From assembly GCF_000384235.1 (NCBI RefSeq), contig NZ_KB913033.1, positions 1,867,164 through 1,931,163 on the forward strand: a DNA stretch of 64,000 nucleotides, written 5' to 3'. The stretch comes from Hydrogenovibrio halophilus DSM 15072. GTDB lineage: Bacteria > Pseudomonadota > Gammaproteobacteria > Thiomicrospirales > Thiomicrospiraceae. Shown in pieces: positions 53,270 through 60,719 of this stretch. A program made the position numbers and the translations under genes. Numbering within the stretch: the stretch's first letter is position 1; each line of letters begins with the position of its first letter. Under the pieces are notes generated by a model. It saw nothing but the letters and a program-made list of their open reading frames with translations, had not been told where the DNA came from and made no database searches.

Positions 53270-53360
53270 AGAGGGGTGTCTGAGCGGTTGAAGGAGCTCG
53301 CCTGGAAAGCGAGTATAGGTGAATAACCTATCGAGGGTTCGAATCCCTTCCCCTCTGCCA
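53270..53360 (+). tRNA. tRNA-Ser (anticodon GGA)
   Basis: A 91-base class II tRNA. Acceptor stem AGAGGGG pairs with CCCCTCT (53350-53356), discriminator G, encoded CCA at 53358-53360. Anticodon stem CTCGC/GCGAG with loop CTGGAAA gives GGA. The long variable arm (TATAGGTGAATAACCTATC) and GGTTCGAATCC are as expected for serine tRNA. Confidence 0.96.
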
Positions 53361-53394
53361 TACACATCAACGTCAGCGGTCGCTGATGTTCGCG

Positions 53395-53428
53395 AAAGCC
53401 CCGGGAGCTGCGCTTCCGGGGCTTTTTT
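53395..53428 (+). terminator. Terminator after tRNA-Ser
   Basis: AAAGCCCCGG (53395-53404) pairs with CCGGGGCTTT (53416-53425), the inner GAGC/GCTT also pairs, and a run of T follows. It ends about 20 bases before the transporter stop, so may act on both strands. Confidence 0.9.
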
Positions 53429-53449: not shown

Positions 53450-54394
53450 TCAGTCTTCAATCACATCGCGGTGGGGTTTTTCCAGTGCAATATAAAGACC
53501 GGAACCGATGATCACGGCGGCACCCACAAAAGTGAGCAGGTCGGGCCATTCCTGAAACAGCCACCAGCCAAAAAAGACCGCGCCCAGAATTTCCAGGTAT
53601 TGCAAAGGTGCCAGCACGCTGGCGTTGGCGTGTGTGAAGGCCAGTGCAATCAGTACATGAGCAAACGCCGCCAGTAGACCCAGCAGGCCCAATAATCCCC
53701 ATTGAGTCAGAGTGGGCCAATTAACTTCGGTCAATGTCAGGGATGCATTTTGTCCCACGCTCATAAAGAGCAACATCAAACCTGCGGCGGTCAGACTGAT
53801 CATCAGCTGTAAACGCACCGATTTTTGCAGTCCATTTGCGGCTTCGGGCCAGTTTTCGGGATCGGGCGCGTTGCTGAATGCGCGGGTTAGGGTGAGATAA
53901 CCCGCATACGCAGTTGCAGAGATCAATGGCAGAAGCGTGGCCCAGCCATAGGCTTCAATATTGGGACGAATCACAATGAGGGCACCCACCAGTCCAACGG
54001 TGACGGCGACCCAGCGTTTGGTGGTGACCGTTTCGCCAAGGAAAATCTTGGAAAATAGCACTAAAATCAAAGGCTCAACAAAGAAGATGGCAATGTTATT
54101 CGCCAGTGGTAAATGCATCAGCCCCCAGAACAAAAACAGAATCGAGATGGCGATTAAACTGCCCAGCCACCAGTCTCTCCTTTTAAGTCCTTGCAGCCAG
54201 ACACCTTGGTGCCGCCACCATAACCATAATGGAAGCAGCAACAGGCACTGAATGACAAATCGTGATGTTGCGATTTGGCCCACTGAAAGGTTTTGTCCCA
54301 ATAATTTGGCGATGGCATCGGAGGCTGGAATGCTCATGACCGCAATGGTCATCCAGATCAAGCCGCGCCATTGTGACGTGGCCGGGTTGTTCAT
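53450..54394 (-). CDS. EamA/DMT family transporter
   Basis: Ten-membrane-segment transporter of 314 aa made of two EamA repeats: residues about 10-140 (SDAIAKLLGQNLSVGQIATSRF, LFLGETVTTKRW) and about 165-305 (ATAYAGYLTLTRAF, ILGAVFFGWWLFQEWPDLLTFVGAAVII). Both copies end in the typical G-A-x-x-I helix. Its start overlaps the mvaS stop as ATGA, so it is the last gene of the mevalonate operon. That suggests export or import of a metabolite linked to the pathway, but the substrate cannot be read from sequence. Confidence 0.85.
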   Translation of the reverse strand: MNNPATSQWRGLIWMTIAVMSIPASDAIAKLLGQNLSVGQIATSRFVIQCLLLLPLWLWWRHQGVWLQGLKRRDWWLGSLIAISILFLFWGLMHLPLANNIAIFFVEPLILVLFSKIFLGETVTTKRWVAVTVGLVGALIVIRPNIEAYGWATLLPLISATAYAGYLTLTRAFSNAPDPENWPEAANGLQKSVRLQLMISLTAAGLMLLFMSVGQNASLTLTEVNWPTLTQWGLLGLLGLLAAFAHVLIALAFTHANASVLAPLQYLEILGAVFFGWWLFQEWPDLLTFVGAAVIIGSGLYIALEKPHRDVIED

Positions 54395-55557
54395 GAACGG
54401 TTCTGGTAACGACGGATGGCGTGCTGGATGCCTGATAGGCGATAGGGGCCGCGATTATTCACGTCGAATGTGACGTTGTCGGGGTCCTGGGTGGCCGGGT
54501 AGTAAAAAGTCAGGTATTGCTCGTAGGTGAGCGGGGTTCTTGCCTGGATCTGTTTTTGATGGCTTCCGCGCATCAGCACCTTTTCATAGCCTGGTTGCAC
54601 AATGCCGGTCAGAAATTCGGCGACGCAACCCGAGCCGTAGCTGAACAGACCAAAGCGTTTGTGGCTCAGGTCGTCGGGTGCGTTGTCCAGAAACGAACAG
54701 AAACCGATAAACAGTGAGGCGCTGTAGCTGTTGCCCAGCACCCGGTTGTATATCTGGCCGGGCTGCGTTTGCGTTTGAAAGGTGTTTTTGGATAAGCGAG
54801 CGCCGACGGTTTTGCACAGGGCTTTGTGCGCTTTTTCGGTCATGCGTGAAAACGGAATGTGGTAGCAGAAAGCGTCGATCTGTTCAAAAGAACGACCGGT
54901 TTCGGACACAAAATGTTGCCAGGCCTGCTTGAGGCTGTTCAGGTACACTTTGGTCGAATACTTGCCGTCAACCAGCGCCGTGGCACGGTGATTGGGACGC
55001 CAGAAATCCATCACGTCTTCGGTAAAATAGCCGGAGCCGGGTTCGATCGCCAGAATCCGCGGGTCGGGCGTGATCAGCATCGCCACCGCACCACAGCCTT
55101 GCGTTGCTTCCCCGGACGAATCCACATCGTATTTGGCGATGTCGGCGGCAATGACCAGAATGCGTTCTTTGGGGTTGGCCGTAACCAATGCGCAGGCCAT
55201 TTGCAGGGCGGCGGTGCCGCCATAGCAGGCGTGTTTGAGCTCGACGGTGCGACAGCGGTTTGAAAGCCCCAGCAGTCCGTGCAGGTAGGCCCCGGCGGAT
55301 TTGGACTGATCCACGCCGGATTCGGTGGCGAAAAGCACATTGGTGATGCTGTTTGGGTCGATCTGATCCAGAATCGGGCGGGCCGCCTTGGCCGCCAGTG
55401 TGACAATGTCTTCGTCCGGTGGGGCGATGGACATTTTTTCCTGGCCGATGCCGACGGTGTATTTTTCCAGTTCAGTGCCTTTTTCCCGGGCGAACGTGTC
55501 CAGTCCCAAATAGTAATCGGCCGTGGCAAAATGTATTAAATCGATCCCAACTGTCAT
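54391..55557 (-). CDS. mvaS: Hydroxymethylglutaryl-CoA synthase
   Basis: Condenses acetyl-CoA and acetoacetyl-CoA to HMG-CoA, the first committed step of the mevalonate pathway. Thiolase-fold protein of 388 aa. The catalytic triad falls at exactly the numbering of the Staphylococcus enzyme: Glu79 (TESGVDQSK), Cys111 (KHACYGGTAAL) and His233 (FCYHIPFSRM). The NSYSASL segment near residue 300 also fits. Start overlaps the idi2 stop (ATGA). The middle of a four-gene overlapping operon. Confidence 0.95.
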   Translation of the reverse strand: MTVGIDLIHFATADYYLGLDTFAREKGTELEKYTVGIGQEKMSIAPPDEDIVTLAAKAARPILDQIDPNSITNVLFATESGVDQSKSAGAYLHGLLGLSNRCRTVELKHACYGGTAALQMACALVTANPKERILVIAADIAKYDVDSSGEATQGCGAVAMLITPDPRILAIEPGSGYFTEDVMDFWRPNHRATALVDGKYSTKVYLNSLKQAWQHFVSETGRSFEQIDAFCYHIPFSRMTEKAHKALCKTVGARLSKNTFQTQTQPGQIYNRVLGNSYSASLFIGFCSFLDNAPDDLSHKRFGLFSYGSGCVAEFLTGIVQPGYEKVLMRGSHQKQIQARTPLTYEQYLTFYYPATQDPDNVTFDVNNRGPYRLSGIQHAIRRYQNRS

Positions 55558-56600
55558 TCAGTCCGACAACTTTGATTCTGATGCAAGAGCGCATCGTTTA
55601 AAAACAGATTGGACACAGTGGACGCCCCCAGTAAAAACTGGGCGGTGCGAAACGCCAGATGAAACTGCTCAATCACTGCCACGCAGGCTTCGGTGGAGGT
55701 CATGGCCGGTTGCAATAGCGGGGCCGCCGTGCCGCAAACATGACCGCCCATTATAACCGATTTGACCATGTCGATGCCATTGCGAATGCCGCCGCTGGCA
55801 ATAAAGTGTGCCCGGTCCTGAAACGCTCTGGCTTCCAAAAGCGCCTGGGGCGTGGTCAGTCCCCAGTCCTGAAAGGTTTCACCCAGATCGGCTCGCGTGC
55901 GTTCGCCGCTGCGCTGGGCTTCGATCCGGCTCCAGGAGGTTCCGCCGCGACCGGCCAGATCAAACCAGTCAATGCCCGCATCCAGCCCCAGTTGAATGTC
56001 GGCCGCAGACAGGCCGCAGCCAACTTCTTTCAGAATCACGGGCACGTCCAGCGCCTGATTGAGCTGTCCGATGCGTTCGGCCAGTTTGGAAAAATTGCGA
56101 TCGCCTTCGGGTTGAATCACCTCCTGCAGCGGATTCAGGTGCAGGATCAGGGCATCGGCCTCCAGGGTGTCCACCATGCGCAGGGCCTGATCGGCCCCAA
56201 AGCCGTAATTGAGTTGAATCGCACCCATATTGGCCAGCAAGGGCACGCTGGGCGCGTAGCGGCGTAATTGAAAACTGGTGTCGGCACCGGGGTCGGTGAT
56301 CAGTGCGCGTTGCGATCCGACCGCCATGGCCGTTTGCGTCTGTTCGGCTGCCTGGGCCAAACGCCGGTTGATCTCTGACAGATTGCCAGAGGCCCCGCCG
56401 GTCATCGACGAAATCAGAAACGGAAACGACAGGGTGTGTCCCAAAAAAGATTGGCGGGTATCGATCCGGTCGAAATCGCACTCCGGCAGGGCACGATGGG
56501 TCAGCTGAATCGCGTCAAACCCGCTTTGATCGCGTTCGATCAATTGGTCTTTCAGCAGCCAGTCAATGTGGTCCTGTTTGCGTTGAGTGATCTCAGTCAT
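55554..56600 (-). CDS. fni: Type 2 isopentenyl-diphosphate delta-isomerase
   Basis: FMN- and NADPH-dependent isomerisation of isopentenyl diphosphate to dimethylallyl diphosphate. TIM barrel of 348 aa: N-terminal RKQDHIDWLL, SSMTGGASGNLSEIN, MAVGSQRAL, LHLNPLQEVIQPEGDRNF with the catalytic Gln, DLAGRGGTSWSRIEA, and the FMN phosphate-binding ASGGIRNGID. Type 2 enzymes are typical of bacteria with the mevalonate pathway. Its start overlaps the HMG-CoA reductase stop by 8 bases. Confidence 0.95.
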   Translation of the reverse strand: MTEITQRKQDHIDWLLKDQLIERDQSGFDAIQLTHRALPECDFDRIDTRQSFLGHTLSFPFLISSMTGGASGNLSEINRRLAQAAEQTQTAMAVGSQRALITDPGADTSFQLRRYAPSVPLLANMGAIQLNYGFGADQALRMVDTLEADALILHLNPLQEVIQPEGDRNFSKLAERIGQLNQALDVPVILKEVGCGLSAADIQLGLDAGIDWFDLAGRGGTSWSRIEAQRSGERTRADLGETFQDWGLTTPQALLEARAFQDRAHFIASGGIRNGIDMVKSVIMGGHVCGTAAPLLQPAMTSTEACVAVIEQFHLAFRTAQFLLGASTVSNLFLNDALLHQNQSCRTE

Positions 56601-57666
56601 GTTTGCCCGTGGCGTCGGTGTGGGTCTGACGTTCGAGTTTCAGGTGCGCGGCCATGAGTTCGCCGGGATTGGTTTGGGCCGCCAGCAGGGAAAGTTCGCC
56701 GCAAAAAGCGCAGGCAGCGGCGATGCAGGCCAGCCGACGGGCATTGTCACCAGCAGGGCGGGCATCCAGACAGCCCAGCTGTTCGAGGTTGGTTTGCACG
56801 AAATCCAGCCCCTTGCCATTGCCGACGGTGCCCACAATCAGATTGGGCAGAGTGGTGGAAAAATACAGGTCGCCTTCGGCGGTGACTTCGGCGTGGTTGA
56901 TGGCCTGAGAGCCTTCGACGATATTGGCGGCATCCTGGCCGGTGGCCAGATAAAAGCCCAGCAGCATATTGGCCACGTGCGCGTTGGCGCTGCGCAGGCT
57001 GCCGGCCGCAATCGAGCCGATCAGGTCTTTTTTGATGTGCAGATCCACCAGCGCTTCGGGCGTGGTTTTCAAAAAACGCTGGCACAATTTGCGCGAGATG
57101 GTAGTTTCACAGACCACATTTTTGCCGCGCCCCAACAGGCCGTTGACCGCCGAAACCTTTTTATCGGTACACAAATTGCCCGAAATCGACACGTAAGAAA
57201 GCGCCGGATACTCAGACAGCACCCAGGGAATCAAGCGGTCGGCGGCATTGGTGACCATATTGTGGCCCGAAGCATCGCCGGTAGTGAACGCCAGACGAAT
57301 GTACAGCAGCTTGCCGATGATCTGAAAATGGGTGTCGATCAGGATCGCATACTGACTGCTTTCACGCACCAGCGATTGCAGGTCTTCGTGACGGGCCTGC
57401 AGCGAATGCATCGCTTGCCGGGCCTCGGCCGCATTCGGCGCTTCCAGCACAATGGAACGGGTCATGCGCTCGTCAATCACCGTCACCCGAATGCCGCCTG
57501 CGTGATGCGCCACCCGGGCACCGCGCGCCACCGAAGGCCACAAAGGCGTCTCGTAAGTGGCCATCGGAATCATCAGATCATCGGCGACCACATCGCCGAT
57601 CAATTTCAGCGGGCCAACCGATTGCATCGGAATCTGCGCAAAAGCTGTGTCTGTATTGTTTGCCAT
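56593..57666 (-). CDS. Hydroxymethylglutaryl-CoA reductase (divergent, class I-like)
   Basis: Predicted reduction of HMG-CoA to mevalonate; 357 aa, shorter than typical enzymes and lacking any membrane anchor. Matching elements: MATYETPLWPSVARGAR with catalytic Glu39, TGDASGHNMVT for the usual GDAMGMNM loop, SGNLCTDKKVSAVN with the catalytic Lys, HVANMLLGFYLATGQDAANIVEGS, and a C-terminal His in GELMAAHLKLER. The usual ENVIG start segment is missing. First gene of the operon; ATG 57666 has no ribosome site and lies 8 bases after a perfect TATAAT, so the message may be leaderless. Confidence 0.85.
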   Translation of the reverse strand: MANNTDTAFAQIPMQSVGPLKLIGDVVADDLMIPMATYETPLWPSVARGARVAHHAGGIRVTVIDERMTRSIVLEAPNAAEARQAMHSLQARHEDLQSLVRESSQYAILIDTHFQIIGKLLYIRLAFTTGDASGHNMVTNAADRLIPWVLSEYPALSYVSISGNLCTDKKVSAVNGLLGRGKNVVCETTISRKLCQRFLKTTPEALVDLHIKKDLIGSIAAGSLRSANAHVANMLLGFYLATGQDAANIVEGSQAINHAEVTAEGDLYFSTTLPNLIVGTVGNGKGLDFVQTNLEQLGCLDARPAGDNARRLACIAAACAFCGELSLLAAQTNPGELMAAHLKLERQTHTDATGKHD

Positions 57667-60084: not shown

Positions 60085-60321
60085 ATGGAAGCCAAGATTT
60101 TTCAATCCGGCAACAGCCAGGCGGTCAGAATTCCCAAACAGTTTCGGTTTGATGGCGACGTGGTTGAAATCTTCAAGCGCGGTGATGAGCTGATTTTAAA
60201 GCCCAAACCTCAAAATCTGGGGGCGGTGTTTCAGCTGTTGTCCGAGATGCCAGAAGACTTTATGGCAGAGGGCCGCCCGGAAAATGAAGACGACTTGCCT
60301 CAGCAAAGAGAGACGTTCTGA
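60085..60321 (+). CDS. vapB: VapB-type antitoxin (AbrB/MazE fold)
   Basis: A 78-aa antitoxin with an N-terminal swapped-hairpin DNA-binding domain of the SpoVT/AbrB type: AKIFQSGNSQAVRIPKQFRF, then VVEIFKRGDELILKPKP. The C-terminal tail (about 50-78, acidic with E, D, Q) should bind and block VapC. Its TGA shares one base with the toxin ATG. GGGG/AAAGGGG ribosome site upstream. Confidence 0.92.
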   Translation: MEAKIFQSGNSQAVRIPKQFRFDGDVVEIFKRGDELILKPKPQNLGAVFQLLSEMPEDFMAEGRPENEDDLPQQRETF

Positions 60322-60719
60322 TGCAGTACCTGCTGGACACCAATATTTGCATTTACATCATCAAACGAAAACCGCTGGCCGTGCTGGAACGTTTTGAGAA
60401 AATGCCTATCGGTGCGGCTGGTATTTCGCTGATCACCTACGGTGAGCTTGAATTCGGTGCCTTGAAAAGCCAGCAATCCCAAAAAGCCCTGGGCATTCTG
60501 GATGAGTTGGTGGCTTACTTGCCGGTGTTATCGATGGAAAACGAAGTGGCCGCACATTATGCTGACATTCGAGCCAATCTTGAAGCCAGAGGGCGGCCGA
60601 TTGGCAACAATGATCTGTGGATTGCCGCCCACGCCCGAGCCCTTGACCTCATTCTGGTCAGCAATAACATCAAAGAATTTGAGCGCGTCGAAGACCTTAA
60701 ACTCGAAAACTGGGTCTGA
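60321..60719 (+). CDS. vapC: VapC-type PIN-domain toxin
   Basis: PIN ribonuclease of 132 aa, expected to cut tRNA or rRNA when freed from VapB. The acidic site is complete: Asp6 in LLDTNICIY, Glu43 in YGELEFGA, Asp99 in NNDLWIAAHA, and the C-terminal NNIKEF segment. The 1-base overlap with vapB indicates coupled translation. Confidence 0.92.
   Translation: MQYLLDTNICIYIIKRKPLAVLERFEKMPIGAAGISLITYGELEFGALKSQQSQKALGILDELVAYLPVLSMENEVAAHYADIRANLEARGRPIGNNDLWIAAHARALDLILVSNNIKEFERVEDLKLENWV

Follow-up and report, generated by a model that had tools for sequence, protein, structure and literature searches.

The closest described systems are the mevalonate pathways of Coxiella burnetii, in which most of the pathway genes are essential (PMC9997736), and of Piscirickettsia salmonis (PMC5732189). 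A survey in 2026 reported that Legionella species appear to be without a phosphomevalonate kinase (PMK) (PMC13001223). Here we analyzed a window of 64,000 nucleotides from Hydrogenovibrio halophilus DSM 15072 (contig NZ_KB913033.1, positions 1,867,164 to 1,931,163), which carries an operon with genes for HMG-CoA reductase (HMGR), type 2 IPP isomerase (IDI-2), HMG-CoA synthase (HMGS), and an EamA transporter. As in C. burnetii and P. salmonis, a mevalonate route to IPP would replace the DXP pathway in this organism. Unlike those two species, the family studied here is best known for chemolithoautotrophs that live freely, and its member in this study has the pathway genes in two clusters far from each other. 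The operon in the window is very probably the front half of a mevalonate pathway that is complete in this genome and supplies the cell with IPP and DMAPP; the ancestral operon would have been broken in this genus, and the transporter gene is a probable passenger. The pathway itself is known and the break in its operon is specific to the genus, so the finding is mostly ordinary.

The four genes are all encoded on the minus strand, in the order HMGR (357 amino acids, 56593-57666), IDI-2 (348 amino acids, 55554-56600), HMGS (388 amino acids, 54391-55557), and the EamA/DMT-family transporter (314 amino acids, 53450-54394). The initial annotation had described them as overlapping by 8, 4 and 4 bases, and the open reading frame coordinates together with the Pfam and NCBIfam matches bear this out: HMGR and IDI-2 share 8 bases, whereas IDI-2 and HMGS, and likewise HMGS and EamA, share the 4 bases ATGA. 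HMGS scored 461 bits with TIGR01835 and IDI-2 scored 374 bits with TIGR02151, both above the cut-offs of 360 and 281, respectively. HMGR matched PF00368 with 288 bits (cut-off 27, E 1.1e-85). Its score with the class I model TIGR00533 was 281 bits, under the cut-off of 441.8, and that with the class II model TIGR00532 was only 19.7 bits. The solved structures closest to it are class I HMGRs, for example 8ecg, 7uli and 1dq8. Judged by family score and solved structures, the predicted HMGR resembles class I enzymes. HMGR, IDI-2 and HMGS are side by side in essentially all relatives, and because this adjacency is kept, their grouping is not due to chance. Downstream of EamA, a tRNA-Ser(GGA) gene was found by ARAGORN on the plus strand (53270-53360), convergent with the operon. 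Between this tRNA gene and the 3' end of EamA, a pattern scan found a terminator-like hairpin with 15 pairs and then a T-rich tail (53394-53426, plus strand, the strand of the tRNA). The total count of hairpins in the scan was not clearly over the shuffle expectation, and this one has the longest stem by far. Elsewhere in the window, a 132-amino-acid open reading frame (60321-60719) resembles, by its sequence, a VapC-type PIN toxin.

The initial annotation pointed out that the kinases and the decarboxylase are not in the window, and proposed that the pathway is either split or ends at mevalonate; it suggested searching for the remaining genes elsewhere in the genome. The genome, which is one contig of 2,356,686 bases (2.36 Mb) rated 100% complete, contains exactly three genes of the GHMP kinase family. 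They are consecutive at 151-154 kb, outside the window and ~585 kb (about 0.59 Mb) from the HMGS half if the contig is circular. The third gene (L004, 10322-11350) was assigned to diphosphomevalonate decarboxylase (MDD), with 281 bits for TIGR01240 (cut-off 171) and E 4e-61 against solved MDDs. The first two genes both match the mevalonate kinase (MVK) model, each under its cut-off, and we dropped solved structures alone as a means of telling them apart, as both match MVK best. The first gene (L004, 8244-9344) scored 121 bits with TIGR00549, below the cut-off of 163, and the best match of its profile was to solved MVKs. It keeps Lys14, Glu177 and Asp188, the catalytic set of MVK, in all 18 aligned orthologues. 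With these residues, we assign the first gene to MVK with fair confidence. In the second gene (L004, 9334-10290), the Asp is kept and the Lys and Glu are gone in 18/18 orthologues. It carries a QGRGSGxDLAAS-type motif, whose GSGxD is typical of PMKs. Its profile scored 173 bits with solved mevalonate kinases versus 52 bits with a solved PMK, and the protein does not reach the curated cut-off of either the MVK or the PMK model. We assign the second gene to a putative PMK only by its motif, its position and exclusion. Proteins of this type may explain PMKs that were reported as 'missing', and the divergence of this gene shows how curated cut-offs could miss a PMK-type kinase. We also compared the genome with that of its sister, G008. 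The identities in the kinase half are 61% for MVK, 69% for PMK and 77% for MDD (L004:8244-11350 versus L140:5801-8876), and those in the front half are 85-89% for HMGS, IDI-2 and HMGR. The kinase half thus appears to change much faster than the front half between these two genomes.

Together, these genes would form a complete route. HMGS, which needs an acetoacetyl-CoA thiolase to feed it, would make HMG-CoA, and HMGR would reduce this to mevalonate; MVK, the PMK-type kinase and MDD would convert mevalonate to IPP, and IDI-2 would isomerise IPP to DMAPP. The presence and families of the genes are read directly from the sequence, and the enzyme activities are predicted from it. Of the two alternatives of the initial annotation, the split pathway is the right one. 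The other alternative, in which mevalonate is the end product and the lower pathway is not run, fits the window taken by itself, which is without kinases and decarboxylase. The three genes found together in the same genome already refute it as far as gene content can tell, and no known source of IPP other than the mevalonate route would be left without dxr or ispG, so its probability is negligible.

Searches for dxr and ispG found nothing in the window genome or elsewhere among the 63 genomes of the order, which cover one family and seven genera; 9 control genomes were positive for each. For IspE, there is no fourth GHMP kinase in the genome, as all three belong to the mevalonate cluster. The initial annotation had also suggested looking for dxs and ispC (dxr), and besides the absence of dxr this gave a weak match to the dxs model in the own genome (19.4 bits). 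In the other genomes, the matches to this model were mostly 18-28 bits, in frames of ~665 amino acids, which is the size of a transketolase. We rejected the PF13292 matches as true dxs because they are weak and most are in transketolase-sized proteins. HMGR was found in 60 of the 63 genomes, HMGS above the cut-off in 58 and IDI-2 above the cut-off in 60; the three HMGR-negative genomes are draft assemblies that are also without kinases. This indicates that the whole family makes its isoprenoid precursors by the mevalonate route. Among 369 gammaproteobacteria drawn evenly across the class, dxr was found in 295 and HMGR in 73, in line with the statement of the initial annotation that most gammaproteobacteria use the DXP pathway. 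Reading both lists, 51 genomes have HMGR without dxr and 22 have both. The family is thus one of a sizeable minority in the class. A literature search, with most subscription papers outside its reach, found no paper that treats this pathway in either Hydrogenovibrio or Thiomicrospira, and the family-wide dependence on the mevalonate route may be unreported.

The gene order in these genomes points to the place where the operon would have been broken. Outside the genus of the window, the kinases come directly after HMGS in all 44 genomes of the order that have both on one contig (counted from coordinates; in 3 of the 44, the first kinase was not among the matches listed). Among named relatives retrieved with HMGS, the order HMGR-IDI2-HMGS-MVK-PMK-MDD was seen in Thiomicrorhabdus, Thiomicrospira, Marinobacterium, Neptuniibacter, Motiliproteus, Amphritea and others, and partly in Kiritimatiellae. 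As in this six-gene operon, the first three genes and the three kinase-family genes of H. halophilus are each in the same order; unlike it, the operon is broken between HMGS and MVK, and EamA is in the place of MVK. In the genus of the window (n=12, including Thiomicrospira sp. WB1 and Hydrogenovibrio sp. SC-1), the kinases are directly after HMGS in none of the 12 genomes and the halves are apart in all of them. The distance between the halves is ~2-2.5 kb in G009 and G015, ~12 kb in G005, G012 and G013, 24-27 kb in G006 and G007, 106 kb in G008 and 585 kb in the window genome, and in three draft genomes of the genus the halves are on different contigs. In most genomes of the genus, SspB and SspA are still neighbours of the kinase half, and PpiC is often still beside the HMGR-side half. 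A tRNA-Ser(GGA) gene and an HbpS/GlcG-like gene lie between the halves in nearly all genomes of the genus, and this tRNA gene is at the break or close to it across the whole genus. In the window genome and G008, the tRNA-Ser(GGA) gene accompanies the HMGS half; the HbpS/GlcG-like gene is with the kinases, where a tRNA-Ser(GCT) gene (L004:7236-7328 in the window genome) adjoins it. This separation suggests two tRNA-Ser genes, GGA and GCT, as the end points of the last rearrangement.

From the spread of the six-gene operon across genera and beyond the order, we infer that it came first. The ancestral operon would have been broken in the genus between HMGS and MVK, at the site of the tRNA-Ser and the HbpS/GlcG-like gene, and the halves would then have been separated further by later rearrangements. 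In the lineage shared by the window genome and G008, the EamA gene would have settled in the place vacated by MVK, overlapping HMGS. A separate case was seen in a metagenome-assembled genome recorded as Thiomicrospira cyclica (L213), in which three open reading frames lie between MVK and PMK; here the operon appears to have been broken a second time, independently.

The transporter has two EamA stretches, like other members of the EamA/DMT family, and scored 77.8 bits with PF00892. No equivalog model was above its cut-off, and the best NCBIfam model, TIGR00950, gave 55.6 of 230 bits. A full-length EamA match was found in only 2 of the 63 genomes of the order, the window genome and G008. The G008 protein is 87% identical, in the same position and with the same ATGA overlap with HMGS; in relatives, MVK holds this place, closely abutting HMGS. 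The GC content of the gene (52%) and its third-position GC (59%) are both a little below those of the operon (56-59% and 67-70%, respectively). Between the window genome and G008, dN is 0.095 and dS is about 1.3. The gene is thus under purifying selection, so EamA does something. Because the genes overlap, EamA is probably translationally coupled to HMGS. The 4-base overlap is kept in two species that are ~13% apart in protein sequence, which suggests that EamA is co-expressed with the pathway; a functional link would predict the same. The closest homologues in the class are in G207, G329, G219 and G422 (53-55% identity) and in G307 (47%), and the next four are in G326, G148, G216 and G325. 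These nine best-matching genomes outside the order (39-55% identity) are all dxr-positive and HMGR-negative. The open reading frames in the neighbourhoods of the nearest homologues gave no pointer to a substrate. In the sister genome, the transporter and the tRNA-Ser are separated by the gene of a 692-amino-acid protein (L139:10335-12413) that weakly matches a Cache domain; the window has no such gene at this position. G009 and G015 have an unrelated membrane transport gene of PF03547 directly after HMGS (L141:6535-7485 and L144:6962-7918). We dropped a transporter after HMGS as a rule for the genus, as a GGDEF protein, a UvrD-like nuclease, unassigned proteins or a tRNA were found there elsewhere.

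The initial annotation proposed that the transporter could move mevalonate. EamA would then export or import mevalonate (or mevalonolactone) and balance the front half against the distant kinase half. Consistent with such a role are the likely co-expression (G008 has the ATGA overlap too), the purifying selection on the gene, and the PF03547 gene in the same place in G009 and G015. This reading is nevertheless highly improbable, because 61 of the 63 genomes in the order have no EamA and nearly all of them use the same pathway, and because its nearest homologues elsewhere come from dxr-positive genomes without HMGR. Moreover, with MVK in the genome, mevalonate would not have to be moved, and our literature search found no paper that links EamA to mevalonate. 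The initial annotation had named a complete second mevalonate cluster elsewhere and a transporter unrelated to mevalonate as findings against its proposal; the remaining pathway genes do lie elsewhere in the genome, and for the transporter the distribution of EamA argues indirectly in the same direction.

A different role for EamA can be imagined. EamA proteins are often exporters of metabolites, and the gene might have been gained because it eases a stress that arises from the pathway or from membrane lipids, for instance by exporting an amphipathic compound, rather than to transport mevalonate. Its overlap with HMGS and the selection that maintains it would fit this, but its nearest homologues are in genomes of the DXP route and no evidence links them to isoprenoid metabolism, and we regard such a role as unlikely. 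It is very unlikely that EamA moves an intermediate or a side product of the mevalonate pathway in the two-species lineage, having been recruited when the kinases left HMGS. Most likely, EamA is a passenger with its own substrate, presumably unrelated to mevalonate.

The locus gives a clean example of an essential operon that is broken at one point and whose halves are variably distant in related species. It also cautions that overlap with a pathway gene does not by itself commit a transporter to the same pathway. For the organisms themselves, the genomes point to a family of sulfur-oxidising gammaproteobacteria that uses the mevalonate route only, and therefore their growth should resist fosmidomycin.
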